Positions 15,543 through 43,080 of a DNA stretch of 64,000 nucleotides are shown piece after piece (the stretch's first letter is position 1; each line of letters starts with the position of its first letter). The position numbers and the translations under genes were made by a program. Source of the DNA: Microbacterium sp. AZCO (GTDB lineage Bacteria > Actinomycetota > Actinomycetes > Actinomycetales > Microbacteriaceae); the NCBI RefSeq assembly GCF_039614715.1, contig NZ_CP154857.1, positions 806,001-870,000 on the forward strand. Reading direction: 5' to 3'. Under the pieces are notes generated by a model that saw only the letters and a list, made by a program, of their open reading frames with translations, made no database searches and was not told the origin of the DNA.

Positions 15543-17168
15543 ATGGGCGGCTATGTGACCGACGAGACCATCGCTCCGAGACTCACGGACGAGCAGTGGG
15601 AGAAGCTGTGCGCACGGGCTGAGGCGCGGGATGCCGCAGACGGTGAGCACGTCTTCCGCACGGGGGATGCCGACTACCCGATGATCCTCGTCGAGGAGGG
15701 GGAGGTCGAGGTCGTCCGCGACGCCCTGTGGTGGATCGGCGAGGAGGTCGTCGCGCTCATGGGGCCGCGGTCGATGGTCGGCGAGCTGGGACTGCTCAAC
15801 GGACAGCGGGCCTTCCTGTCCGCGCGCGCGAAGGGGCCGGCGCGCGTGCGCGCCCTCTCTCGGGAGAACCTGCGCCGCATCATCTCCGAGGAGGACGAGC
15901 TCGGCGAACTGATCCTGCACGCGCTGTGGGCGCGTCGCGAGTCGCTGCGCAGCGGTCCCGCCGCGCTGACGCTCAAGTTCGTGGGCAGGGGAACGTCCCG
16001 CGAGTTCCTGGCGCTGCGCCGCTTCGCGGAGCGCTTCGACCTCGTCCACACCGCGATCGCCGTCGACCAGGTCGAACCGCATCCGGGTCACAGTTACGTC
16101 GAGGCCGATCTGCCCATCGCGTTCGTCCAGGGGGAGGCGTTCCCGCGCGCGACTCCGGGAGTCGTCGCCGAGCAGCTCGGTCTCAGCTACGAGCCCGGCG
16201 CCGAGTCGGTCGTCGACCTCGTCGTGATCGGCGGCGGCCCCGCGGGGCTCGCCGCAGCGATCTACGCGGCGTCCGAAGGGCTCAGCACCGTGCTGCTGGA
16301 AGCCGTCGCGCCCGGCGGCCAGGCGGCATCCACCTCCCGCATCGAGAACTTCCTCGGATTCCCTTTCGGGGTGAGCGGCGACCGGCTCATCGGTCAGGCG
16401 ACGCTGCAGGCGATCAAGTTCGGTGTGCGGGTCTGCGCGCCCTGCGAGGCGGTCGACCTGCGGCCGGTCGATGACGCCATCGAGGTGACGCTGTCGGACG
16501 GGCGCGTCATCCGCTCGCGCACGGCGATCGTGACCTCGGGCGCCGCGTACCGCACGCTGCATCTGGACCGCTGGGAGGACTTCGAGCGTTCCGGCATCTT
16601 CTACGCGGCGACACCGCTGGAGCTGAAACAGGTCGCGGGGTCGCCGGTCGTCGTCGTCGGCGGGGCCAATTCCGCCGGGCAGGCGGCGCTCTACCTGTCG
16701 TCGAACGGATCACCGGTGCATCTCGTCGTGCGCGGTGCCGACCTCGGCACCCGCATGTCGGCGTACCTCGTGGACCGCATCACGGACGACCCCCGGATCA
16801 GCCTGCACACCGAGTCGAACGTGGTGCGCCTCGACGGCAACGGCACGCTGCAGTCGGTCCGGATCGACACGGCGGGCGACGTCGACGCCAAGGGGCTCTT
16901 CTGCTTCATCGGCGCCGACCCCGCCGCGGCCTGGCTGCCGGGCGTCGATCGAGACGGATCGGGGTTCATCCGCACCGGCACCGACGTGACGACGCAGACC
17001 CTCGGCCACTGGCAGCGCCTCGGCCGCGAGCCGCTGCCGTTCGAGACCTCGATCCCGCGCGTCTTCGCCGCCGGCGACGTGCGTCGCGGGTCGATGAAGC
17101 GCGTGGCCGCCGCCGTCGGCGAGGGTTCGAGCGCCGTGGCCTCCGTGCACCGCGCTCTGGCGGGCTGA
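15543..17168 (+). CDS. Cyclic-nucleotide-binding domain fused to thioredoxin-reductase-like flavoprotein
   Basis: A 541-residue fusion. Residues about 15-130 form a CRP-like cNMP-binding fold (MILVEEGEVEVV and GELGLLNGQRAFLSARA), a linker follows, and from about 222 a pyridine nucleotide-disulfide reductase fold begins with VVIGGGPAGLAAAIYAASEGL, then PGGQAASTSRIENFLGFP, a second Rossmann motif VVGGANSAGQAALYLS and a terminal FAD loop VFAAGDVRRGSMKRVAAAVGEG. The CxxC redox pair of true thioredoxin reductases (after the YxATCDG position) is replaced by FYAATPLE, so it cannot reduce thioredoxin by the usual route. TACCCT at 15530-15535 lies 7 bases before the ATG, so the message is probably leaderless. 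Confidence 0.9.
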   Translation: MGGYVTDETIAPRLTDEQWEKLCARAEARDAADGEHVFRTGDADYPMILVEEGEVEVVRDALWWIGEEVVALMGPRSMVGELGLLNGQRAFLSARAKGPARVRALSRENLRRIISEEDELGELILHALWARRESLRSGPAALTLKFVGRGTSREFLALRRFAERFDLVHTAIAVDQVEPHPGHSYVEADLPIAFVQGEAFPRATPGVVAEQLGLSYEPGAESVVDLVVIGGGPAGLAAAIYAASEGLSTVLLEAVAPGGQAASTSRIENFLGFPFGVSGDRLIGQATLQAIKFGVRVCAPCEAVDLRPVDDAIEVTLSDGRVIRSRTAIVTSGAAYRTLHLDRWEDFERSGIFYAATPLELKQVAGSPVVVVGGANSAGQAALYLSSNGSPVHLVVRGADLGTRMSAYLVDRITDDPRISLHTESNVVRLDGNGTLQSVRIDTAGDVDAKGLFCFIGADPAAAWLPGVDRDGSGFIRTGTDVTTQTLGHWQRLGREPLPFETSIPRVFAAGDVRRGSMKRVAAAVGEGSSAVASVHRALAG

Positions 17169-21309: not shown

Positions 21310-22782
21310 ATGGGAAGTGCTCGGGCCGAAGCGGCGTATCTGCGGGCCCTTGCGGCATTCCGGACACCGACCCTCGATCTTCTCCACGGACGGTATGCGC
21401 CGTTCGTCGTGGCGGCGCTGTCGATCGTCTTCACGGTCGATCGGCCCGCTGTCGAGATCTCCGACGCCCACGCGGAAGTGGCCGAGATCCTCGACGAGCT
21501 GCGGGCAGCAGGCTACGACGAGGGCGACCGGGCGCTGCCGGTCGGCACGGCGCGCGAGATCTGCCGGTACTGGGTGCGCGTGGGGTGGCTCGTGCCCCAG
21601 ATCGACGGCGACGTCGAGGTGTACCGCCTCACGGCGCACGCCGTGGGCGCTCTCGAGATCACGGGTCGCACGGCCGGCGGCCGCACTCGCGTGAGCAACT
21701 CGCGCGTGCGGACTCTGCTCGAATCGGTCGAGCGCCTGTCCGACCACGCCGAGACCGACCCCGCGCAGCGGAAGGCGCGACTGATCCGCGAGCGCGATGC
21801 GCTGACCGCGGAGATCGCGCGCCTCGAGGCGGGGGAGCTGGAGGCAATCGACGACGAGCAGCTGCTCGAGGAGGCCGAGAACGTCCTGCACCTCGCCCGC
21901 GAGCTGCCGGCCGACTTCACGCGGGTGGCGGAGTCGATCAAGGCGATGCAGCGCGACGTCGTCGCGGATCTGCGCCGCGACGTGCGGCCGACGGGGGAGG
22001 TGCTGCGGGAGTATCTGCAGCGCGGACAGCACGTCATGCAGTCCACCGCGGAGGGGCGCGCCTTCGCGGGCGCGCTGCGCCTGCTGGGCGACCCGGACCG
22101 CATCGACAGCCTCACCGAGCAGCTGCACTCCCTGCTCGCACAGCCGTTCACGCGGCTCCTCGACGAGGAGCAGCGGCGGGAGCTCGACGCGATCGGAAGG
22201 CGGGTGGAGCTCGGCGTGGAAGAGGTGCTGACCGCGCAGCGCCGGGCGTCCCGTGTCATCACCGGTCAGGTGCGCACCCACGACCCGATCCGCGATCGGC
22301 AGGTCGACGACCTGCTGCGCGACGTCATGTCGGGGCTCCAGGCCTGGACCCGCAGCTCGTCGTCCGATGCGGCGGTCGAGCCGCTGCGCAGCCTGCCCAT
22401 GGCCGACATTGGACATCTGCGCCAGTCGCTGAGCGACATCCGTCCCCCCGGCTCTCCTGCGCCGCTCACGGGCGCTGACGAGGAGGCGGAATTCATGGAT
22501 GCCGACACCCGCGCCTGGGGAGGTCCGCGCTACGCCGAGCTCGAGGCGTACGTCGCCGGCCTCGGCGACCACTTCGATCTCGCCGATGCGTTCGAGGGAG
22601 CGGCCGACGACACCCGCCGCCCGGTCGACCTCGTGGGTCTCCTCGAGATCGCGCATCGCAACGGCATGAGCGAGGCTGACGACGTGTCGATCGTCGAAGC
22701 CCTCCGCCCCGACGGGACGACGCGTCGCTTCGCGTTCGGATCCGTGATCGCCCGCACCGTGAAGGAGCCCGCCGATGACTGA
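21310..22782 (+). CDS. jetA: Wadjet/Mks subunit JetA (DUF3375, kleisin)
   Basis: A 490-residue protein of family DUF3375, the kleisin-like MksF/JetA subunit of type I Wadjet systems, which bridges the SMC-like JetC dimer and recruits JetB. Seen: the N-terminal [18 protein letters not shown] and [20 protein letters not shown] blocks typical of the family, a helical acidic middle and a C-terminal winged region with [22 protein letters not shown]. Length matches the family. TACTGT (21297-21302) stands 7 bases before the ATG, so the operon message is probably leaderless. The end overlaps jetB by 8 bases. Confidence 0.92.
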
Positions 22783-23611
22783 GACCGCGACCCTCGGCGA
22801 CGTCGCCGCGGACACCCTCGCCGCCGATCCCGGAGCCGCCGATCCCGTGGCCGCCGAGCCCGCGGACGTCGTCCCAGACGTCGCCGCGAGCGCCGCCTTC
22901 ATCGAGCCCGCCGCGATGGAGGACGACCTCGCCGAGCTCTTCCCCGGCGACCGCGGAGTCCTCGAGCCCGCGGTGCGCCGCGTGTTCGTGCACGTGCTGC
23001 AGCGGCGGTTCCTGCAGGCCGACCGCAATCGCGACGAGTGGACGGTGCTGCTGGACAACCAGCAGCTCATCGAGTCGCGGCTCAACGACCTCTTCGTGCG
23101 TCTCGTCGTCGACCACGAGCGCGGCGTCGCGTACAAGCAGCAGGTGCGCTCGGACGAGCTCGAGATGCCGATCCTGCTGCGCGACGCCCCCTACACGCGC
23201 TCGGAGACCCTCGTGCTCGTGCACCTGCGCACCGTCTTCCAGCGGGAGTCGGCGGCGGGGGAGCCGGCGGCCCGCGTCGACATCGAGGACGTCGAGCAGA
23301 CCGTGATGAGCTACTTCGCGGACGCCGACGGCGACACCGCCCGCCGCCAGCGTTCGATCCGCAAGGCGATGGACCGGCTCGCGCGCGACGGCATCGTGGA
23401 CGAGGAGACGACCGGTCGCTTCCGCATCAGCCCGCTCGTCGAGATCGTGCTGAGCGCGGAGAAGCTACGCGAGCTGCGCGACTGGCTGCGCGCGCAGTCC
23501 GATCCCTCGGGCGCGGGGGCCGCGGCATCCATCCCCTCCGGAGACGTCTTCGACGACGACGACGTCGACGACGATCCCGAAGACGACGTCGATGAGGAGT
23601 TCGCGCTGTGA
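22775..23611 (+). CDS. jetB: Wadjet/Mks subunit JetB (DUF4194, KITE)
   Basis: A 278-residue protein of family DUF4194, the MksE/JetB winged-helix partner of JetA. The conserved core is [20 protein letters not shown], then [22 protein letters not shown] and the end helix-turn-helix [28 protein letters not shown]. An alanine- and aspartate-rich N-terminal extension of about 50 residues and a very acidic tail ([17 protein letters not shown]) flank it. It is translated by coupling on both sides: 8-base overlap with jetA and GTGA overlap with jetC. Confidence 0.92.
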
Positions 23612-26600
23612 CGATGCTCGACACGCTGTTCGGGCTCATCCCGGCGGCATCCCGCGGGCAGCAGTGGCTCGCCGAGGACCTGCAGCTCGTGAACTGGGGA
23701 GGGTACGACGGCGCGCACCGCGTGCGCTTCTCGCCCGAGGCGACGCTGCTGTGCGGCGGATCCGGCTCGGGCAAGTCGACGCTGATGGATGCCTACATCG
23801 CGCTCATGATGCCCCACACCACGCCGTTCAACGGGGCCTCGAACGGGGGAGTGACGGGTCGCCCGCGCGGCGACGAGCAGCGCAACATCCTCTCGTACGG
23901 ACGCGGCAAGCTCGACGAGTCGCGCACCGAGGAGGGCACGAAGATCCGCGTGCTCCGCGGTGACGGCGAGGACACCTGGACCGCCGTCGCGATGACGTGG
24001 GTCGACCACGACGGGACGCGCTTCACGGCGGTCCGCGCCTGGTACATCCCGGCCGCCGCCCGCGTGCTCGAGGACACCGTCCGAGTCCGCGCGACGACCG
24101 ACCGCGCGTTCGACCTCAGCTCGCTCGAGCAGGCGGCGGCGCTCCGGCTGTCGGACCTCGCGATCCGGAATGCGGGCCTGGATCCCGTCGGCACCGACCG
24201 CGAGTTCTCGGCCCGGCTGCACGCCGTGCTGGGCATCGGCGCCGCCGGCGCGGGGGCGAAGGCGATGAGCCTCCTCGCCCGCATCCAGGCCGGCCAGCAG
24301 ATCACGACGGTCGACGACCTCTACAAGCGCCTCGTCCTGGAAGAGCCCGAGACGATGACCACGGCCGATGCCGTCGTCGCCCACTTCGACGGCCTCGAGA
24401 GCACGCGCACGCGCATGCTCACGGCCCGCCAGCAGGTGACGGCGCTCGAACCGATCCCCGAGCTGCGCGGGAAGATCGCGGCCGCGGCCGAACGGGTGCA
24501 GCTCATCGACGAGGTGGGCGAGTTCTCCGACCCGGCGTCGCTCGCGACCCTCTGGCGCGCGGAACGGCGCCTAGGGCTGCTCCGCGAGGTCGAGACGGAG
24601 CTGCGCGACCGCAAGAACGCGGCGGACATCACGCTGCGCGAGAACCGCGCGCTGGCCGATGCGGCCGAGGCGGAGCGCGACGGCCTCGTCGAGGTGCTGC
24701 GGCTGTCGGGCGGCGATCGCCTCGAGACCGCCCAGCGCGAGATCCGCGAGGTCGAGCGCCGCCTGTCCAGCACGCAGCGCAACCGCGAGCTGCTGGATGC
24801 CGAGCTGAAGCCGCTCGGCATCGACGTCACGTCTCGCGAGGAGTTCGCCGAGCTCGTCACCCGGGCTCGTGCGGAGCTCGCCGACTCCGACGCGAAGGCG
24901 CGTGCACGGCACGCGTTCGCCGACGCCGCCTCGGCGGAGAAGAGCGTCGGCCGGGAGGTCGCCGAGCTCGAGGCCGAGGCGCGGCGAGCGGCGGCTCGCC
25001 AGGGCAGCATCCCTCGCCCTCTCCACGAGTCGCGCGAGCTGCTCGCACAGGCGGCGGGCCTCGAGGTGGGCGACCTCCCCTTCGTGGGCGAGCTCATCGA
25101 GGTGCGCACCGAGTTCGAGCCGTGGCGGGAGGCGTTCAACCTCGCGCTGGGCGGCTTCGCCACGACGCTGCTGATCGATGCGGCGCATCTCGACCGCTTC
25201 CGCTCGGCCATCGAGTCGGTCCGCACGCCGGTGCGGCTGCACTTCGAGGGCGTCCACACGGGGCTGGAGCCGGTCGGCGGGCTCGACGCGCGGACCCTCC
25301 CCGGTCGCCTGGACTACCAGAAGTCGCCGTTCACCGGCTGGCTGCAGGAGCGCCTCGAGGACCGCCACGGCTACGTGTGCGTCGACTCGCGCGCCGAGCT
25401 CTCGCGTCACCGGATGGCGTTGAGCATCACGGGCCAGGTCTCGCAGGGGAGCCGCGGCGCCCACGGCGGTCACGGGCGCGAGAACGTGCTGGGCTTCTCC
25501 AACCAGCGGCGTCTCGCGGAGCTCGGGCAGCAGCTCGACGACGCCCGCGGGCGCCTCGCCGAGGCCGTCGCGACGATGAACGCCGCGAGTCGGGCACTGG
25601 ACTCCGTGGATGCCGGAACCGCCGTCTACCGGAAGATCGTCGACCTCACGTGGGAACAGGTCGACGTGGATGCGGTCACCGCGGAGCGCGACCGCTGGCT
25701 CGCGGTGCACGACGAGGTGACGGCATCCGATCCCGAGATCGTGAAGGTGCAGGACAAGCTCGCCGACATCAAGGTGCGCATCGCCCGTCTGCGCGAGGAG
25801 ATCGGGCGCACCACGATCGAGCGCGAGCAGATCGAGGCGCAGTGGGGGGACGTCATCGACAATGTCGACTCCGACCAGACGATCATCGACGCCGCGGCGG
25901 ATGCGGAACGCGTGCTGACCCCCGAGCAGACCGCGTTCCTCGACACCCGGTTCACGGCGGCGGAGTCTTCCGCGCGGACGAGCGCCTCGGACGCGCTCGC
26001 GGTCTTCGTGGCTGCGCTCACGACCGCCGCGCAGCGCCTCGCGGAGGACCGTCGCGCGGCCGTCGACTCGCTCGAACAGCAGCGCGACGCGATGCGGCGC
26101 ATCATGGTCGGCTTCCTCGAGCGCTGGCCCAACCCCAATCTGCTGCCCGATCCACACGCGTCGGCCGGTGACTTCGAGCGGATCCTCGAGGCGCTCAGAA
26201 CGAGCGGTCTGCACGAGCTGGAGGCCGAGTGGCGCGACAGCCTCCTCAAGCTGTCCGGCAACGACCTGACGAACCTGGATTCGACGCTGAGCCGCTCCAT
26301 CCGCGAGATCCGCGACCGCATCGAGCCGATCAACGAGATCATGCAGGACCTGCCCTTCTACGACGACGCGCATCGCCTGCAGATCACGACGCGTGAGAAC
26401 CAGTCCGAGCCGCGGCGCCGGTTCCGCCGCGAGCTGCGCGAGGTGCGCGGGCTCATCGAGGCGGCGTCGACGGATGACGAGCGGGAGCAGGCCTATCGCC
26501 GCATGTCGCGGCTCATCGGGCACATGCGACGTACCGCCCCCGACTTCGGCGACCTCATCGATGTGCGCAACCACGTGCGCGTCAGCGCCGAGCGCGTCGA

Positions 26601-26958
26601 CGCGGCGACGAAGAGGCACGTGGCCCTCTACGACCACATCGGCGAGAAGTCCGGCGGCGAGTCCCAGGAGCTCATCGCGTTCATCGTCGGCGCGGCCCTG
26701 CGCTATCAGCTGGGGGATGCCGGCGCCGAGCGCCCGCGGTACGCGCCCGTGTTCATGGACGAGGCGCTCATCAAGGCCGACGCGCACTTCACGAAGCGGG
26801 CGATCGGCGCATGGCGCGGCCTCGGCTTCCAGCTCGTCATCGGCGCGCCGAACGACAAGTACAGCGCCATCGAGCCGCACGTCGACGTGGAGTACGACAT
26901 CCTCAAGGACACCCGCGGCCGGTCGTGGGCGAAGCCGAAGGTGGGGCTGCGGGCGTGA
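23608..26958 (+). CDS. jetC: Wadjet/Mks SMC-like ATPase JetC
   Basis: A 1116-residue SMC-like motor of the MukB/MksB/JetC type. The Walker A loop GGSGSGKST is at about residues 50-58; long coiled coils occupy about 290-450 and 620-760 around a central hinge-like region; the C-terminal ATPase half has a signature-like [19 protein letters not shown] near 1015 and Walker [13 protein letters not shown] near 1046. With JetA and JetB it would form a DNA-extruding complex that recognises small circular DNA. The GTG at 23608 overlaps the jetB stop; an ATG two codons later is equally possible. Its own end overlaps the next gene by GTGA, a slot normally taken by jetD. Confidence 0.93.
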
Positions 26959-27659
26959 CATCGCGCCCGGTGATCGGGATCCTGGGTGCCGGTCGACTCG
27001 GAATGGTGCTGGCGCGCCTCGCCGCGAACGCCGGCTACCCCGTCCTCGTCGCGGGCTCGGGCGACCCGCGACGGATCACGGTGCCGCGCGACCTCGCCGG
27101 CGTGGTGGCCACGACGGCGGCCGAGGTCGCCGAGCGGGCGGACATCGTGATCCTCGCCCTGCCGATCGGCCGGTATCGCACGATCCCGGCCGGGCCGCTG
27201 ACCGGAAAGCTCGTGATCGACGCCATGAACTACTGGTGGCAGACCGACGGCATCCTCGCCGACTTCACGGATCCGCTCACCTCGAGCAGCGAGGTCGTGC
27301 AGCGACACCTCCGGACGACGCGCCTCGTGAAGGCGCTCAACCACATGGGCTACGACGACCTCCTCGACGAGGCCCGGCCGGCCGGCGAGCCGGCGCGGAA
27401 GGCGATCGGCGTCGCCGGTGACGATCCCGCCGACGTCGAGGTCGTCTCGCGCCTCGTCGACGACCTCGGGTTCGACCCGGTCGTCGCCGGAGCGCTCGCC
27501 GACGGCGTGCGGCTCGAACCCGGCACCGACGCCTTCGGCGCCGACGTCGATGCGGGAGAGCTGCGGACGATGATCGACGGCTTCGCGATGTCGCAGCGCG
27601 GGCGTCGCCGATCGGCCGCGCAGCGTGCCGAGTCGCGGGGGACCGCGAGTCCGGAATAG
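26955..27659 (+). CDS. F420-dependent NADP reductase-like protein, coupled to jetC
   Basis: A 234-residue NAD(P)-binding protein of the F420-dependent NADP oxidoreductase (FNO) family, PF03807. The Rossmann motif [19 protein letters not shown] is at the N-terminus, followed by [26 protein letters not shown] and VIDAMNYWW, and a C-terminal helical half. Such proteins transfer hydride between NADP and F420 or another acceptor. The GTG at 26955 overlaps the jetC stop by four bases, so it is the fourth gene of the Wadjet operon, where jetD would be expected. Whether it is functionally linked or a chance neighbour cannot be seen. Confidence 0.87.
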
Positions 27660-32290: not shown

Positions 32291-33181
32291 TCAGACCGCG
32301 GGTCGGAGCGTGCGCGCGTAGTCCTCCTTGAGCACCGCGAGGTGGAACCAGGCTTCGACGTGCGCAACGCCCGGGAGTGAGCGGATGCGTTCGAGACTCG
32401 CGTAGAGGGCCCCGGCCGACGGCTCGACGAGCGTCATGACGGCGTCGAAACGGCCGAGGGTGCGGGCCGCGAAGTCGACGCCCCGCCACGTGCGCAGCGC
32501 GTCGAGGACCGAGTCGTCGTCAGCCAGGAGGTTGAGCCCGACGCCCATCGAGAGCTGGCGGTGCGCGAGCCCGCGCGCCTCGACGGCGCTGATCTTGATG
32601 ACGCCGCTCTCGATCAGCCGCTCGACTCGGGTCGTGACGGCCGAGGGCGAGAGGCGCACCGCCTCGCCGAGCGCCCGAAAGCTCATGCGGCCGTCGCGCT
32701 GCAGCAGCTCGATGAGCGCGGTGTCGGTCGCATCGATCGTGACGTCTCCCCGGTACTCCGACACGAAGAAGCCCTTGATGACGCTCGAGTAGATGAGCGT
32801 GTTGATGTCGACGACGCCTGGCATCGCGCGGATCTCGGCGAGGAGGTCGTGCAGGGCCGCCATGGAGCCGACGCGCACCTCGGTGACGAGGTCGTGCGCG
32901 CCGCCGATGGCCGAAACGAGCACCGTCTCGGCCAGCCCGCGCAAGCGCTGGGCGAGCGGCTCGACGGTGGCATCCGTGCGGATCGAGACGTGTGCGAGCA
33001 CGTGCTGGCCGAGAAACCCGGGATCGACGGCGGCGACGACGCGCACGGTCCCGTCGGCGAGCATCGTGCGGAGTCGGTCGGAGACGGCGGCACGCGGGCG
33101 GCCCAGTCGCTCACCGAGGGAGTGGATGCTGGCCCTCCCGTTCTCCTGCAGGGCGCGGATCAGATCGGCGTCGAAGTCCAT
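32291..33181 (-). CDS. Double-length Lrp/AsnC-type regulator
   Basis: A 296-residue regulator made of two tandem Lrp units. The first HTH is DADLIRALQENGRASIHSLG with GRPRAAVSDRL, followed by an RAM-like sensor strand set; the second HTH begins near residue 155 (DATDTALIELLQRDGRMSFRALG) with its own sensor region to the end. Ordinary Lrp proteins are about 150-160 residues. It is divergent from the transporter-amidohydrolase-TPP-ureohydrolase operon and is its most likely controller, plausibly responding to an amino acid or guanidino compound. Confidence 0.88.
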   Translation of the reverse strand: MDFDADLIRALQENGRASIHSLGERLGRPRAAVSDRLRTMLADGTVRVVAAVDPGFLGQHVLAHVSIRTDATVEPLAQRLRGLAETVLVSAIGGAHDLVTEVRVGSMAALHDLLAEIRAMPGVVDINTLIYSSVIKGFFVSEYRGDVTIDATDTALIELLQRDGRMSFRALGEAVRLSPSAVTTRVERLIESGVIKISAVEARGLAHRQLSMGVGLNLLADDDSVLDALRTWRGVDFAARTLGRFDAVMTLVEPSAGALYASLERIRSLPGVAHVEAWFHLAVLKEDYARTLRPAV

Positions 33182-33276
33182 GCTCGCTCGATTCGTCGAA
33201 TTTCCCGGGATCGCTCGGGATCCCCGACAGAAGTAGATCACAGATCCGCTTGCGAGTGACGTTTTCCGAAGACCTG

Positions 33277-33287
33277 CATTGGCAATG
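33277..33287. promoter_or_regulatory. Small palindrome between Lrp gene and MHS operon
   Basis: CATTG-G-CAATG is a perfect inverted repeat about 109 bases before the transporter start. A second dyad-like stretch rich in GGGATC/GATCCC lies at about 33210-33225. Both are in the shared divergent region and could be Lrp sites; neither matches a site I can name. Confidence 0.3.
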
Positions 33288-33395
33288 AGACGGAACTCCA
33301 GTGAGAGGCCGAATCTGCTGGACTTTCGCGGTTGCCGAGGCATCCCGACGCTCGTAGCATCCTTCGCATCCCCGATCATCCGCAAAGGAGCGGCC

Positions 33396-34724
33396 ATGAG
33401 TTCCAGCACCACGACTCAGCGAGCGCGACGAGCCGGGCTCGCCGCGTTCGCCGGCACCACGATCGAGTGGTACGACTTCTACGTCTACGCCACGGCGGCC
33501 GCCCTCGTGTTCGGTCCCCTCTTCTTCCCGAGCGGCGACCCGCTCGCCGAGACGGCGGCGGCGTTCGCCACCTTCGCGGTCGCGTTCCTCGTACGGCCGC
33601 TCGGCGGCATCCTGTTCGGCCACATCGGCGACAAGCTCGGCCGGCGCGTGTCGCTCGTCATCACCCTGCTTCTCATGGGCGCCGCGACGGTGCTCGTCGG
33701 CTGCCTCCCGACATACGACGCGATCGGCATCTGGGCGCCCATCCTCCTGATCCTCCTGCGCGCGCTGCAGGGCCTCGCGGTCGGCGGCGAGTGGGGTGGT
33801 GCCGTCCTCATGAGCGTCGAGCACGCGCCGGAGGGCAAGAAGACCTTCTACGGCGGCTTCACGCAGCTGGGCAACCCCGCCGGAGCACTCCTGGCCTCCG
33901 GGATCTTCGCCATCATGGCGCGGTTCGGCGACGACTTCATCATGAACGGCGGATGGCGCATCCCGTTCCTCCTGTCGATCGTGCTCGTCGCCGTCGGCTT
34001 CTGGGTGCGGTACCGCGTGGAGGAGTCGCCGGTCTTCGAGTCGAAGGTCGAGGGGCGCAAGCAGTCGATGCCGCTCGCCTACGCGCTGCGCGTCAACTGG
34101 AAGCCGATCCTTCTCGGCATCGGCCTGCTGCCGATCTCGACCGGCGGCTACTACTTGGCGACCACGTTCGCGACCGCGTACGCGACCGGCGACACGATCA
34201 ACATGAGCGAGTCCCTCATCCTCGACGCCATGACGATCGCGTCATTCATCGAGTTCGTCGTGACGCTGCCCGTCGCGTGGCTCGGCGACAAGTGGGGCCG
34301 CAAGAACATCATGTACATCGGTCTCGCCACCTCCGTGCTGACGTTCGTGCCGTTCATGCTCGTTCTGCCCGGGCGCATCGAGCCGCTCGTCTTCCTCTTC
34401 GCGTCGCTCGTGCGCATCGCGATGAGCGCGACGTACGCGCCGATCGCGGCGATTCTGGCGCAGATGTTCCGCCCGCAGGCGCGCTACACGTCCATCGCCC
34501 TCTCCTACGGCGTCGGGGCGGCGATCTGGGCCGGGTTCTCGCCGTGGTTCGCGACGCTCCTCATCGCCTGGACGGGGAGCATCTGGTCGGTCGTCGCGAT
34601 GTTCACCGGCATGGCGATCCTCGCCGCGATCTGCACGAAGCTCGCTCCGCAGCACTCCGACGAGGCACCCGTCACCGACAGCTTCGTCCCCCGCACCGAC
34701 ACCACCACGAATCGAGTGTCATGA
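33396..34724 (+). CDS. MHS-family metabolite:proton symporter
   Basis: A 442-residue, twelve-helix MFS transporter of the metabolite:H+ symporter family (ProP/ShiA/KgtP type), recognised by the opening AGTTIEWYDFYVYATAAALVFGPLFFPSGDP, the GHIGDKLGRR loop and the GGEWGGAVLMSVEHAPEGK segment. It probably imports the organic substrate used by the three enzymes that follow. AAAGGAG lies 7 bases before the ATG. Its stop overlaps the amidohydrolase start by ATGA. Confidence 0.92.
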   Translation: MSSSTTTQRARRAGLAAFAGTTIEWYDFYVYATAAALVFGPLFFPSGDPLAETAAAFATFAVAFLVRPLGGILFGHIGDKLGRRVSLVITLLLMGAATVLVGCLPTYDAIGIWAPILLILLRALQGLAVGGEWGGAVLMSVEHAPEGKKTFYGGFTQLGNPAGALLASGIFAIMARFGDDFIMNGGWRIPFLLSIVLVAVGFWVRYRVEESPVFESKVEGRKQSMPLAYALRVNWKPILLGIGLLPISTGGYYLATTFATAYATGDTINMSESLILDAMTIASFIEFVVTLPVAWLGDKWGRKNIMYIGLATSVLTFVPFMLVLPGRIEPLVFLFASLVRIAMSATYAPIAAILAQMFRPQARYTSIALSYGVGAAIWAGFSPWFATLLIAWTGSIWSVVAMFTGMAILAAICTKLAPQHSDEAPVTDSFVPRTDTTTNRVS

Positions 34725-39058: not shown

Positions 39059-42000
39059 TCAGCTGCGCCGTCTCCTGCGCAGCACGAGGACGATCCCGAG
39101 GGCGAGCAGGGTTCCGGCCAGCGCCAGGGGCACGGTCGGATCGGCGCCCGTCGTCGGCAGACCGTTGGTGCCGTACGTCGGTGCGGGCGTCGGCGTCGGA
39201 CTCGCGGGCGGCGGCGGCGCGCTCGGCGCAGCGACGACGACCACCTGGATGGACAGCGCGGCGCCGGTGGCGCCGTCTCTGTCGGTCGCGGTCAGCGTCG
39301 CCGAGTACGTCCCCGCGGCGGCGTACGTGTGCGTCACGGGCGGGTCGGCGGGCCCGACGACGCTGAGCATCGACGTGCCGTCGCCCCAGTCCACCGTGTA
39401 GGTGAACAGTGCCGCCATGTCGGCGGACGAGGGGTCGTCGGCGCCGACCTCGATCGTGAAGGGCTGGCCGGCGGTGGCCCTCAGCGATCCCGTCACCACG
39501 GTGGCGGGAGCCGTGTTCGTCACCTCGAGGGTGGCCGTGTCGGTGACCTGCTGCTGCCCCGACGTCACCCGGACCCTCACGGTGCGCGCGACGGGCGTCG
39601 CATCCCCGTCGTCGATTCCGAGCGCCTCGAGCTGCGCCCACGTGAGGGTCGGTGAGACACCAGTCGCGTCGCTGAAGTCACCGTCGCCGTCGACGTCCCA
39701 TTCGTAGGTCGCACCAGGGCTCGAGCCCGAACCGTCCAGCTCGAGGTCTTCGCCCTCCGCGACGGAGTAGGGGCCGCCCGCGTCCGCGACGACGACGGGC
39801 TCGACGACCTGTGCGAGGTCGTCGTCACTGCCGGCGTAGACCGCGTCTCCCGTGAAAGTCGCCGTGATGTCGTGGGTTCCCGGACTCAGGCTGCTCGTCG
39901 TGATGGACGCCGTCCCATCGGCTGCCAGGGCGACAGCACCCACGAGCGGAATTCCTCCGTCGGCGAAGACGACCGAGGAGACCCCCACCGCCGCGCCGCC
40001 CGCCGTCACGGTCGCGGTGAAGGTGACCGCGTGCCCGGCGATCGACGGGTTGGCGCTCGAGGCGAGCGAGGTGGAGGTCGGAATCTTCTCGACGACCTGG
40101 TCGACGGCGCTCACGCTCGTGGCGTACTGGGCGGTTCCGGAGTAGGTCGCGGTGACGGGGTGAGTGCCCGCAGCGAGGGACGCCGTGGTCAGGGTCGCGG
40201 TGCCGTCGACGGCGAGCGGGACGGCGGCCCCGAGAGGGGAGCCGTTGTCGGCGAACGTGACGGTGCCGGTCGTCACCGGCGAGCCGTTCGCCGTGATGGT
40301 CGCCGTGAACGTGACAGCCTGTCCGGGCTGCGAGGGGTTCGGAGCCGACGAGACCGCGGTCGAGGTCGGGATCACGTCGACCTGCTGCGAGACGGCACCC
40401 GAACTGGCGACGTACTGAGCGGTTCCCGAGTAGGTCGCTGTGATCGGATGCGTGCCCGCCGCGAGGGACGCCGTCGTCAGGGTCGCAGTGCCGTCGGCGG
40501 CGACCGCGACGGCGGCCCCGAGCGGAGTGCCGTTGTCGGTGAACGCGACGGTGCCGGTCGTGACCGGCGAGCCGTTCGCCGTGACCGTCGCGGTGAACGT
40601 GACGGGCTGCCCGACGGCAGACGGGCTCGAGCTGGTGGTCACACCCGTCGATGTCTGAATCAGCGTGACGACCTGATCGAGTTCATCGGAGCTCCCGGCG
40701 AACTCGACGGGGCCCGAGAAGGTCGCCGTGATCGGGTGGGTTCCCACACCGAGCGAGTTGAGGGTGAGTGTCGCCGTTCCGGTCGGCGATACGGCCACCG
40801 GCGCTCCCAGCGACGACCCGTTGTCCGTGAAGGCGACGGTGCCGGTCGTGACCGGCGAGGCGCCCGACGTGACAGTTGCGGTGAGCGTCACGCTCTGCCC
40901 GGCGGTCGACGGGTTCACGCTCGACGTCAGCGACGTGGCCGTGGGGCTCACGGTCGTGATGGTGAGACACCAGCCTCCGCTGATCGAGCCGGCGTCGCCG
41001 TTCGCGTCGTCCACGACCCACAGGCTCCACACGCCGTTGCCGCTCGAACCGGCGAAGGTCGAGAGCGTCGTGGCCGAGCTCGTCGCGGGAGCCGGCGCGG
41101 GGAACGCGGCATCCGGGACGTCCGAGTCGTCGTCCGTCGGCGTGTACGTTCCCGATGCGAGAGTCGGCGGCACGCCGCCGGCCGCCGCGTCGTCGAACAC
41201 CACGTTCACGCCGGTGACCGCAGAGTTCCCGCCGACGTCGCTCATCAGCATGACGTTGGTCGAGGGCGTCGGCCCGGACAGCATCACGTCGAGGTCGACG
41301 GGGGAGGTGTGGGTCACGCCCTTGAGGGTCGCGGTGACCTTCGCGATCGGCGCGGTGAGCCCCGACACCGTGATGTTCGACGGGTAGGGTGATGTGGCTC
41401 CGGCATCCGGCACCGTCAGTGCGCCGGTGTTGCAGTACGTGTTGCCCGTGACGACTGTCGGGTTGTCGACCCGCTGCGTCACAGTGCCGTTGCTCGTGAG
41501 GAATCCGGGGCTTCCCGAGTAGGTCGCGACGATCGTGTGCGTGCCTTCGGCGAGCGCACTCGTCGTCAGGCTGGCCGAGCCGGAGGCGTTGAGGGCGACC
41601 GTGCCGAGAGTCGCGGCCCCCTCGGTGAAGATCACCGATCCCGTCGTGACCGGGTTGCCGGCGCCGGTGACCGACGCGGTGAACGTCACTGCGCTGCCCG
41701 TCGCCGACGGCGAGCCCGACGTGACGACCGTCGTCGTGGTGGAGACGGCGGCGACCTCGGTCGTGATGACGAGGCTCCAGCCTGCGATGCTGCCGACGTC
41801 GCCGGTGTTGTCGTCCACGACGTACAGCTGCCACGTGCCGTTCGGGTTGATCCCGGTGAAGGCGCCCGCGAGGGTGGTCTGTCCCGACGGGGCCGGTGCC
41901 GGCGCGGTGAAGGCGTCGCCGCCTCCGACGTTGGTCGGCTTGTACGTGCCGGTGGGCACGTTGCCGGTCGGCACTCCGCCAGCCGCCGCGTCGTCGAAGG

Positions 42001-42415
42001 TCAGTGTCGCGTTGGTCGCGAACGTCAGCGTGGCGGGGGGTGCGTCGCCCACGTCGGACAGCACGACGAGGTTCGCGCCCGTCGGCGCGACCACGAGGGC
42101 GTCGATGTCGTTGAGGGCGCCGTGCGTCACGCCGTTGAGCACGACTTGAACCTTCGTGACAGCTCCCGCCATGCCCGACACGGTGATGCTCGACGGATAG
42201 GGGTTGGCGGCGCCGGTCTGATTCGGCGAGTTCAGGAGCGGAACATCGATGGTGGCGGGATTGGAGAACGTGCTCGGCCCGTCGGCCTGTGCCAGAGAGG
42301 GCGCCGCGAGCGCGCCGCCGAACACGGCGAGGAGGACGGCGATGGATGCTGCGATGCCGCGTCGTGGCGATCGTGGTGCTGCGACCGCGCTGCGGGCGGA
42401 ATCGAGTCTGGGCAT
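39059..42415 (-). CDS. Large LPTTG-anchored surface protein with Ig-like and PKD repeats
   Basis: A 1118-residue secreted protein. A signal peptide (residues 1-43, cut after AQA) is followed by a proprotein-convertase-P-like beta domain (about 47-225), one Ig-like repeat, a second P-like domain (about 320-480), four more Ig-like repeats with the pattern TxxVxSxPNPS..GQxVTFTATVT..TGTVxFxDNG..TLTTASLAxGTHxxTATYSG, two PKD-like domains with WDVDGDGD and DWGDGTS, a proline/threonine stalk and a sortase signal LPTTG (about 1086) with a membrane helix and RRRRR tail. It is expected on the cell wall as an adhesin or matrix protein. The ATG at 42415 follows AGGGAG. Sortase is not in the window. Confidence 0.9.
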   Translation of the reverse strand: MPRLDSARSAVAAPRSPRRGIAASIAVLLAVFGGALAAPSLAQADGPSTFSNPATIDVPLLNSPNQTGAANPYPSSITVSGMAGAVTKVQVVLNGVTHGALNDIDALVVAPTGANLVVLSDVGDAPPATLTFATNATLTFDDAAAGGVPTGNVPTGTYKPTNVGGGDAFTAPAPAPSGQTTLAGAFTGINPNGTWQLYVVDDNTGDVGSIAGWSLVITTEVAAVSTTTTVVTSGSPSATGSAVTFTASVTGAGNPVTTGSVIFTEGAATLGTVALNASGSASLTTSALAEGTHTIVATYSGSPGFLTSNGTVTQRVDNPTVVTGNTYCNTGALTVPDAGATSPYPSNITVSGLTAPIAKVTATLKGVTHTSPVDLDVMLSGPTPSTNVMLMSDVGGNSAVTGVNVVFDDAAAGGVPPTLASGTYTPTDDDSDVPDAAFPAPAPATSSATTLSTFAGSSGNGVWSLWVVDDANGDAGSISGGWCLTITTVSPTATSLTSSVNPSTAGQSVTLTATVTSGASPVTTGTVAFTDNGSSLGAPVAVSPTGTATLTLNSLGVGTHPITATFSGPVEFAGSSDELDQVVTLIQTSTGVTTSSSPSAVGQPVTFTATVTANGSPVTTGTVAFTDNGTPLGAAVAVAADGTATLTTASLAAGTHPITATYSGTAQYVASSGAVSQQVDVIPTSTAVSSAPNPSQPGQAVTFTATITANGSPVTTGTVTFADNGSPLGAAVPLAVDGTATLTTASLAAGTHPVTATYSGTAQYATSVSAVDQVVEKIPTSTSLASSANPSIAGHAVTFTATVTAGGAAVGVSSVVFADGGIPLVGAVALAADGTASITTSSLSPGTHDITATFTGDAVYAGSDDDLAQVVEPVVVADAGGPYSVAEGEDLELDGSGSSPGATYEWDVDGDGDFSDATGVSPTLTWAQLEALGIDDGDATPVARTVRVRVTSGQQQVTDTATLEVTNTAPATVVTGSLRATAGQPFTIEVGADDPSSADMAALFTYTVDWGDGTSMLSVVGPADPPVTHTYAAAGTYSATLTATDRDGATGAALSIQVVVVAAPSAPPPPASPTPTPAPTYGTNGLPTTGADPTVPLALAGTLLALGIVLVLRRRRRS
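39800..40950 (-). repeat. Four tandem Ig-domain coding repeats
   Basis: Four consecutive units of about 280-285 bases encode the Ig-like domains of the surface protein. The two central units (about 40090-40670) are nearly identical over long stretches at the DNA level, for instance around GGCGAGCCGTTCGCCGTGA-like blocks seen near 40280 and 40565, which suggests recent duplication or gene conversion. Copy number is likely to vary between strains. Confidence 0.8.
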
Positions 42416-42570
42416 GCGTGAGCCACTCCCTGTCGACGTCCGCTTCGATCGGCGACCGGTCTGGCGGACACGGTTCCCCCGAGGGCACACTATGACTGCG
42501 ATGGGGCGTCTGTACAGATCAGGGCCGCTTCGCACACTGGGGGAGATCCGCTCCGACCTCTGGAGGACGC

Positions 42571-43080
42571 ATGGATCCATTCATCGGCGAGTTGCGCCTT
42601 TTCGGCTTCACCTTCGCCCCGCAGGGCTGGGCGCTGTGCAACGGACAGCTGCTTGCCATCTCGCAGAACACCGCTCTCTTCTCACTGCTGGGCACGACGT
42701 ACGGAGGCAATGGGCAGACGACCTTCGCTCTCCCCGACCTTCGAGGCCGCGCACCGATCGCGTTCGGACAGGGACCGGGTCTGACGAATCGCGCCCAGGG
42801 CGAGGTGGGTGGTGAGGAGGCCGTGACCCTCACCGCCGCGACGCTTCCGCCGCACAGCCACACGGTCGCCGCCGCATCGGCCGCCACGACCAAGAACCCG
42901 TCGGGCTCGCTGCCGTCCGTGACCGCCGCCGGCGCCTCCTACGGCACGACCGCGGACCTCGTCATGAGCCCCGCCATGATCGGCGGTGGCGGCTCCAACC
43001 AGCCGCACGACAACATGCCGCCCTTCCTCGTGCTCAACTGGTGCATCGCCCTGGAGGGCATCTTCCCGTCGCGTCCCTGA
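42571..43080 (+). CDS. Tail-collar (microcystin-dependent protein-like) protein
   Basis: A 169-residue protein of the phage tail-collar fold (PF07484), typified by MDPFIGELRLFGFTFAPQGW then CNGQLLAISQNTALFSLLGT, the YGGNGQTTFALPDLRGRAP block and LPPHSHTV, ending NMPPFLVLNWCIALEGIFPSRP. In bacteria such MdpB-like proteins occur in clusters outside phage and are thought to be secreted or displayed repeats; no other phage gene is nearby. It is divergent from the LPTTG surface protein, with which it shares a 155-base promoter region. Confidence 0.9.
   Translation: MDPFIGELRLFGFTFAPQGWALCNGQLLAISQNTALFSLLGTTYGGNGQTTFALPDLRGRAPIAFGQGPGLTNRAQGEVGGEEAVTLTAATLPPHSHTVAAASAATTKNPSGSLPSVTAAGASYGTTADLVMSPAMIGGGGSNQPHDNMPPFLVLNWCIALEGIFPSRP

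Follow-up and report, generated by a model that had tools for sequence, protein, structure and literature searches.

A JetABC locus without the nuclease gene jetD in Microbacterium sp. AZCO, probably an MksBEF-like derivative of type I Wadjet

What does a Wadjet motor do when the gene for its nuclease is missing? The question is raised by a jetABC operon of Microbacterium sp. AZCO, found in a stretch of 64,000 nucleotides (contig NZ_CP154857.1, positions 806,001 to 870,000, hereafter the window), in which jetC is followed by a reductase gene and no jetD is present. We conclude that the operon probably encodes a three-gene JetABC complex of the structural maintenance of chromosomes (SMC) type that descends from type I Wadjet, has lost jetD and now resembles MksBEF; its cellular job is one that we infer. 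The complex is read as a nuclease-free, MksBEF-like motor because jetABC is open, the genome contains no JetD, jetD or its stubs are found at the same junction in related loci, many relatives are without jetD as well, purifying selection acts on two of the proteins (JetA and JetC) and, outside close relatives, no further neighbour recurs beside the operon.

The jetABC operon and the missing jetD

The features of the locus, in window coordinates, are as follows:
21310..22782, + strand: jetA, encoding an mksF-like kleisin (DUF3375) of 490 amino acids (aa); PF11855, 378 bits, E 9.9e-113; PADLOC JetA1, 714 bits
22775..23611, + strand: jetB, encoding an mksE-like KITE protein (DUF4194) of 278 aa; PF13835, 138 bits, E 3.3e-40; PF21980 (MksE), E 2e-7; PADLOC JetB1, 371 bits
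23608..26958, + strand: jetC, encoding an mksB-like SMC ATPase of 1116 aa; PADLOC JetC1, 1678 bits over residues 2-1114
26955..26958, + strand: GTGA overlap at the jetC stop, which is the position and frame of the jetD start in most of the compared jetD-bearing relatives (ATGA or GTGA), from printed junctions
26955..27659, + strand: gene for an NAD(P)-binding reductase of the F420_oxidored type, 234 aa; PF03807, E 1.2e-13; NCBIfam npdG, 34.5 of 149.8 bits; most likely an incidental neighbour

All four frames are open. The overlap is 8 base pairs (bp) between jetA and jetB, and 4 bp (GTGA) both between jetB and jetC and between jetC and the reductase gene. A first reading of the window from its letters alone (the sequence-only reading) had described jetA, jetB and jetC as intact and joined by these 8-bp and GTGA overlaps, with the GTG of the reductase overlapping the jetC stop; open reading frames and family matches confirm the former, and the latter is found at 26955-26958. 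The ATPase motifs of JetC are all present, with a Walker A (GGSGSGKST) from residue 50, a signature (SGGES) at 1015 and a Walker B (FMDEA) at 1049.

The same reading had found no JetD in the window, and this absence extends to the whole genome, a single complete contig of 4.23 megabases (100%). Profile searches of this one genome with JetD_C (PF09983) and with DUF3322 (PF11795) each gave no match, while Corynebacterium glutamicum was positive with both among 14 control genomes. Nor was a jetD remnant detected within 8 kilobases (kb) of the window jetC by the JetD profile on frames of at least 30 aa. The locus thus has the JetA, JetB and JetC genes of a type I Wadjet operon and does not have the JetD/MksG nuclease (DUF3322 with DUF2220/JetD_C) of that type; its set of MukBEF-like SMC, kleisin and KITE genes without a nuclease gene is that of an MksBEF-like system.

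jetD among the relatives

In the genus sample (295 genomes; 137 full-length JetA loci listed, the window included), JetD was scored as present when its match lay 3-9 kb downstream of JetA and in the same orientation; JetA rows below 240 bits were not counted and the weakest rows (below 67 bits) were left aside. At JetA scores of 320-400 bits, where the window lies (378), JetD was found downstream in 4 of the 105 loci listed, one of the four being a 27-bit remnant. The corresponding figures were 26/27 at 400 bits or more, the exception (G421) having its JetD on another contig, and 5/5 at 240-320 bits. The class sample of 384 genomes, which contains the window and shares some genomes with the genus sample, was counted leaving out JetA matches below 290 bits and JetD matches below 100 bits; it gave JetD in 5/42 loci at JetA 290-400 bits versus 22/23 at 400 bits or more. 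A family sample of 150 genomes contained 30 with a JetC relative and 16 with JetD. The jetABC operon without jetD is therefore the usual form of the JetA class to which the window belongs. The operon itself is patchy, with any DUF3375 match in 135 of the 295 genus genomes, and on plasmid records JetC was matched in 14 of 72,556, all below 60% identity.

Closer to the window we compared 80 named relatives, whose JetC identity ranges from 58 to 85%; 76 of them have at least 1.5 kb of sequence after jetC. The gene jetD was intact in 23, broken or reduced to a stub in four (L064, L117, L128 and L131) and absent in 49; the downstream sequence was shorter than 1.5 kb in the other four. Since the JetD profile was built from stop-to-stop frames, its coverage figures include about 20 residues from the frame that overlaps jetC, for which reason L117, L128 and L131 were classed as stubs by reading their printed junctions. 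These stubs, which keep roughly the first 15-40 codons of jetD, are found in three genera (Nocardia, Sphaerisporangium and Actinoplanes), and in M. helvum (L064) jetD is broken.

Two JetABC types, only one of which has an intact JetD, coexist in several genomes: L043 (G135), L045 (G096), L210 with L252 (G347), and L215 (G213). The reverse case is L234 (G190:C22), with a full-length jetD match and a jetC lacking a single open frame over its full length, the best JetC match beginning at residue 442.

A JetC tree was built with FastTree from 114 rows, comprising 77 without jetD, 29 with it, four with fragments and four of unknown state. Distant types were dropped by hand (L059 and L060, without a JetD match; L236, L237, L239, L251 and L252, with one), as were near-duplicates and JetC sequences below 900 aa, which removes L234. 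The state without jetD requires 10 changes on this tree, all of them forced by starred branches, against a mean of 28.5 with shuffled labels; the state with jetD requires 11, and 19 losses are needed if jetD is never regained. With long branches in a FastTree topology, these counts are a guide only. Loci without jetD form clades of up to 40 rows, and L233 (with jetD) and L218 (without) are sisters; the change thus seems to have occurred many times among close relatives. The direction is read as loss rather than gain because jetD sits at the same junction in related loci, stubs remain in three genera and the M. helvum gene is broken. In the open-licence literature we found no report of repeated jetD loss in Actinomycetota.

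If JetABC still acted against plasmids, the nuclease could be supplied in trans, an option that the sequence-only reading had named; the source would be either an unrelated nuclease or the JetD from another Wadjet operon. Such help is conceivable where a second JetD exists: a jetD-less locus of the window class occurs in 101 genus genomes, and in 10 of them JetD is matched somewhere at more than 100 bits. The N-terminal stretch of JetB also seems to be kept in both states, and Bacillus subtilis needs all four subunits against plasmid transformation, according to a review (PMC10586767). However, the other 91 genomes have no such JetD, the genome of the window has no match at all, and no nuclease gene recurs beside the locus in the clustered neighbourhoods. 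Supply in trans is thus not general, and we consider it improbable as the explanation here.

The neighbourhoods were clustered for 101 loci with and without jetD, plus 20 class-wide loci without it, using gene calls from codon GC bias that are rough and include some antisense frames. Beyond near relatives, no partner recurs at a fixed place in these loci except jetA, jetB and jetC, and jetD where it is present. Other shared neighbours are confined to near relatives or belong to common families at varying places. A nuclease other than JetD, or another partner, conserved beside jetABC was rejected as a candidate, none recurring across clades in the 101 and 20 clustered loci.

The gene at the jetC stop

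Could the reductase have taken the place of JetD? The sequence-only reading had offered this as one of three options, with the reductase as a new effector or sensor that depletes or reads NADPH or F420; in the version weighed here, JetABC would sense the plasmid and the reductase would be the effector or a redox or cofactor sensor. It had called the gene a member of the FNO family and had held that the strict coupling made pure coincidence less probable. Indeed, the reductase is open over 234 residues and starts on the 4-bp overlap with jetC. The family label holds at the level of the superfamily, as the PF03807 NAD(P)-binding domain, shared with FNO/NpdG, is matched at 51.9 bits (cut-off 21.6). 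It does not hold as an enzyme assignment: the NCBIfam equivalog for NADPH-dependent F420 reductase (TIGR01915) gives 34.5 bits, far below its cut-off of 149.8. FNO is thus, by sequence, a superfamily label for this protein. Among solved structures, seven sequences match at E ≤ 0.01; an uncharacterised protein comes first with 36.5 bits, ahead of STEAP3 and an NADP oxidoreductase. The genomic context shows no tie of the gene to the SMC complex.

This kind of overlap appears to be older than the arrival of the reductase. We printed the junctions of 41 loci, of which 13 have an intact jetD. For 11 of these 13 (L042, L044, L233, L235, L110, L111, L113, L116, L120, L124 and L130), an ATGA or GTGA at the jetC stop offers jetD a start in the -1 frame; L118 and L234 have no such overlap, their jetD starting farther downstream. 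The window overlap is no argument for a tie to the reductase, because the same overlap type joins jetC to jetD in these 11 relatives; the GTGA looks like the old jetC-jetD type of junction. The reductase frame starts VTSR, the related jetD genes start VTAR, MSPR, MSAR or VSER, and near reductases start MTVDRP or MTAGKP. The opening codons of the reductase could be a leftover of jetD or its own, since near reductases likewise begin with MT.

Synteny points the same way. The reductase follows jetC in none of the 76 informative named relatives (tblastn, E ≤ 1e-4), and this also applies to the relatives that share 85% JetC identity. In relatives jetABC is followed by unrelated genes while reductases of the family lie elsewhere, which is the situation that the sequence-only reading had named as speaking against a functional link. 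The sole reductase matches in the named loci (L064, L065 and L066) are on the other strand, 2.9-5.6 kb downstream. The family is common, with a copy at E ≤ 1e-20 in 242 of the 295 genus genomes. In nine genus genomes, selected by eye from the matches listed, the distance from jetC to a reductase downstream of it is about 2.9-23.6 kb; all nine copies are on the opposite strand, and several of these regions share additional flanking genes with the window. On the reductase tree, the window copy clusters with those of G351, G338, G258 and G159 (support 96*) and not with the nine copies near jetC. No jetABC was found beside the reductases of G351, G338, G258 and G159 within the 20 kb fetched.

The junction between jetC and the reductase was found in the genome of the window alone, and a four-gene system of JetABC plus reductase is not supported. 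A local rearrangement seems to have created the junction, and the reductase is most likely an incidental neighbour outside the system. Synteny, phylogeny and the older jetC-jetD junction led us to reject it as a replacement effector, a role that we regard as extremely unlikely.

Several other genes of the window were recorded. A small metallopeptidase gene (Zincin_1, PF06262; 20785-21213, + strand) stops 96 bp upstream of jetA on the same strand. At 15543-17168 (+) a pyridine-nucleotide-disulphide reductase domain is fused to a cyclic-nucleotide-binding domain. The gene at 32291-33412 (-) encodes a double Lrp/AsnC regulator of 373 aa, with two matches each to the AsnC-type HTH and to the ligand-binding domain; this gene and its neighbours are kept near jetABC in several genomes of the genus. 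A surface-type protein of 1173 aa that contains PKD domains and five Ig-like stretches of the Big_3_5 kind is encoded at 39059-42580 (-), and divergent from it is a gene with a phage tail collar domain (42571-43080, +). In G351, relatives of these last two genes adjoin the closest relative of the reductase.

Constraint and role of the nuclease-free motor

Ratios of nonsynonymous to synonymous substitution (dN/dS) were estimated by the Nei-Gojobori method from pairs that are not independent, and L064, whose jetD is broken, was counted as jetD-less. The jetD-less Microbacterium loci gave medians of 0.075 for JetA (17 pairs) and 0.089 for JetC (22 pairs). Where JetD is present, JetA had medians of 0.086 within the genus (8 pairs) and 0.147 outside it (54 pairs), and JetC had one of 0.243 (90 pairs, other genera). 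The same-genus JetA frames with JetD (L181-L200) are longest open frames, and among them L193 (G421) is the locus with JetD on another contig. A second jetD-less type gave 0.171 for JetC (4 pairs), and no JetB pair met the length limit. Purifying selection thus acts on JetA and on JetC, and the jetD-less motor as a group shows no sign of relaxation. A tighter constraint without JetD is suggestive only, as the genera differ between the compared sets.

Several observations weigh against a nuclease-free motor kept for a job of its own. A nuclease too divergent for both JetD models may exist in the genome. The N-terminal stretch of JetB (FIxPxxMEDD..LFxGDxG) is alike by eye in loci of the clade with and without JetD, and a partner could still be bound there. 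A JetD-binding motif at the JetB N-terminus that was lost together with JetD was considered as well, since a review of Wadjet mentions an IFDR motif (PMC10586767); no literal IFDR was seen in the JetB N-termini of the clade, where the stretch looks the same by eye in both states, so that the comparison says nothing for or against such a loss. The window JetC has a dN/dS of 0.17-0.18 against its nearest relatives, compared with 0.05-0.13 for the other 12 jetD-less pairs. Simple patterns recover all three ATPase motifs in 62 of the 77 jetD-less JetC rows and in 26 of the 29 rows with jetD; the 15 jetD-less misses by these patterns comprise 11 rows without the Walker B and four without the Walker A and B. 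Some jetD-less loci are not intact, as jetB is short in L043 and L069. Finally, the MksBEFG of C. glutamicum, a related system, had no effect on chromosome organisation in a published study (PMC7083940). For Actinomycetota, a role on the chromosome can therefore not be taken for granted; that system has, however, MksG.

Part of this evidence could be taken for decay, in which jetD went first and jetABC is following. The stubs and breaks of jetD, the patchy occurrence of jetABC, the shortened jetB genes and the somewhat raised dN/dS of the window JetC would all agree with a dying defence locus. Against this, jetA, jetB and jetC are all open in the window, the jetD-less clades are large, and the dN/dS values are low and not above those of loci with JetD, for JetA in the same genus as for JetC in other genera. 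We therefore find it improbable that the operon is a decaying remnant.

The course of events that we favour is loss of the nuclease with retention of the motor. An ancestral type I Wadjet operon would have lost jetD, leaving the three-gene JetABC, in which JetC, with JetA and JetB, would keep ATP binding and DNA loop extrusion. Without its executor JetD the complex would not cut DNA and may serve as a condensin in the manner of MksBEF or as a factor that compacts DNA, its substrate being the chromosome, plasmids or both. A local rearrangement would later have placed the reductase beside jetC, on the junction type that jetD uses in relatives. This corresponds to the condensin-only option of the sequence-only reading, the best supported of the three that it gave.

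Related systems have been described. In the Wadjet review, JetABC of type I is proposed to be an ATP-driven DNA-loop motor and MksBEF is said to have likely originated through loss of JetD (PMC10586767); an older review describes MksBEF as widely distributed in bacteria (PMC4255302). With type I Wadjet (JetABCD; MksBEFG of C. glutamicum; EptABCD of Mycobacterium smegmatis) the locus shares the JetA, JetB and JetC families, the gene order and the overlapping junctions, and homologous loci bearing jetD are found at about 57-68% JetC identity to the window. It differs in that locus and genome are without jetD/mksG, the nuclease that executes plasmid cutting. With the MksBEF of Pseudomonas aeruginosa, a condensin without MksG, it shares a three-gene MukBEF-like SMC complex and the lack of a nuclease. 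That system belongs to another phylum, and a chromosomal role has been reported for it, which for the complex of the window would be a prediction. As jetD-bearing relatives and stubs lie close to the window on its own tree, the two would have lost the nuclease separately. The nuclease-free MksBEF kind is thus already known, and the locus described here is another member with an unusually informative history of loss.

The motor may instead have stayed a defence, JetABC alone restricting plasmids by winding, followed by silencing or mis-segregation, with no cutting involved. An SMC motor with intact motifs, a defence ancestry and a patchy distribution would suit this, and compaction without cutting is described for Smc5/6 in the Wadjet review (PMC10586767). 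In the four-gene system of C. glutamicum, however, deletion of mksG alters plasmid copy number as deletion of mksB does, according to a published study (PMC10123090). We regard restriction by winding alone as unlikely, and a condensin-like or DNA-compacting role remains the reading that we prefer.

More tentatively, it is possible, if somewhat short of probable, that throughout Actinomycetia the whole class of JetABC to which the window belongs has repeatedly shed the nuclease and been kept for another job, be it non-cutting compaction of plasmid or phage DNA or folding of the chromosome. If this is true, the class offers a natural series in which a defence machine is converted into a housekeeping or non-cutting one, with intact, broken, stub and clean-loss stages. 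The pairs of near relatives would make it testable what a Wadjet motor does without its nuclease. For annotation, loci of this class with DUF3375, DUF4194 and JetC should not be taken for a plasmid-cutting Wadjet unless JetD is present.

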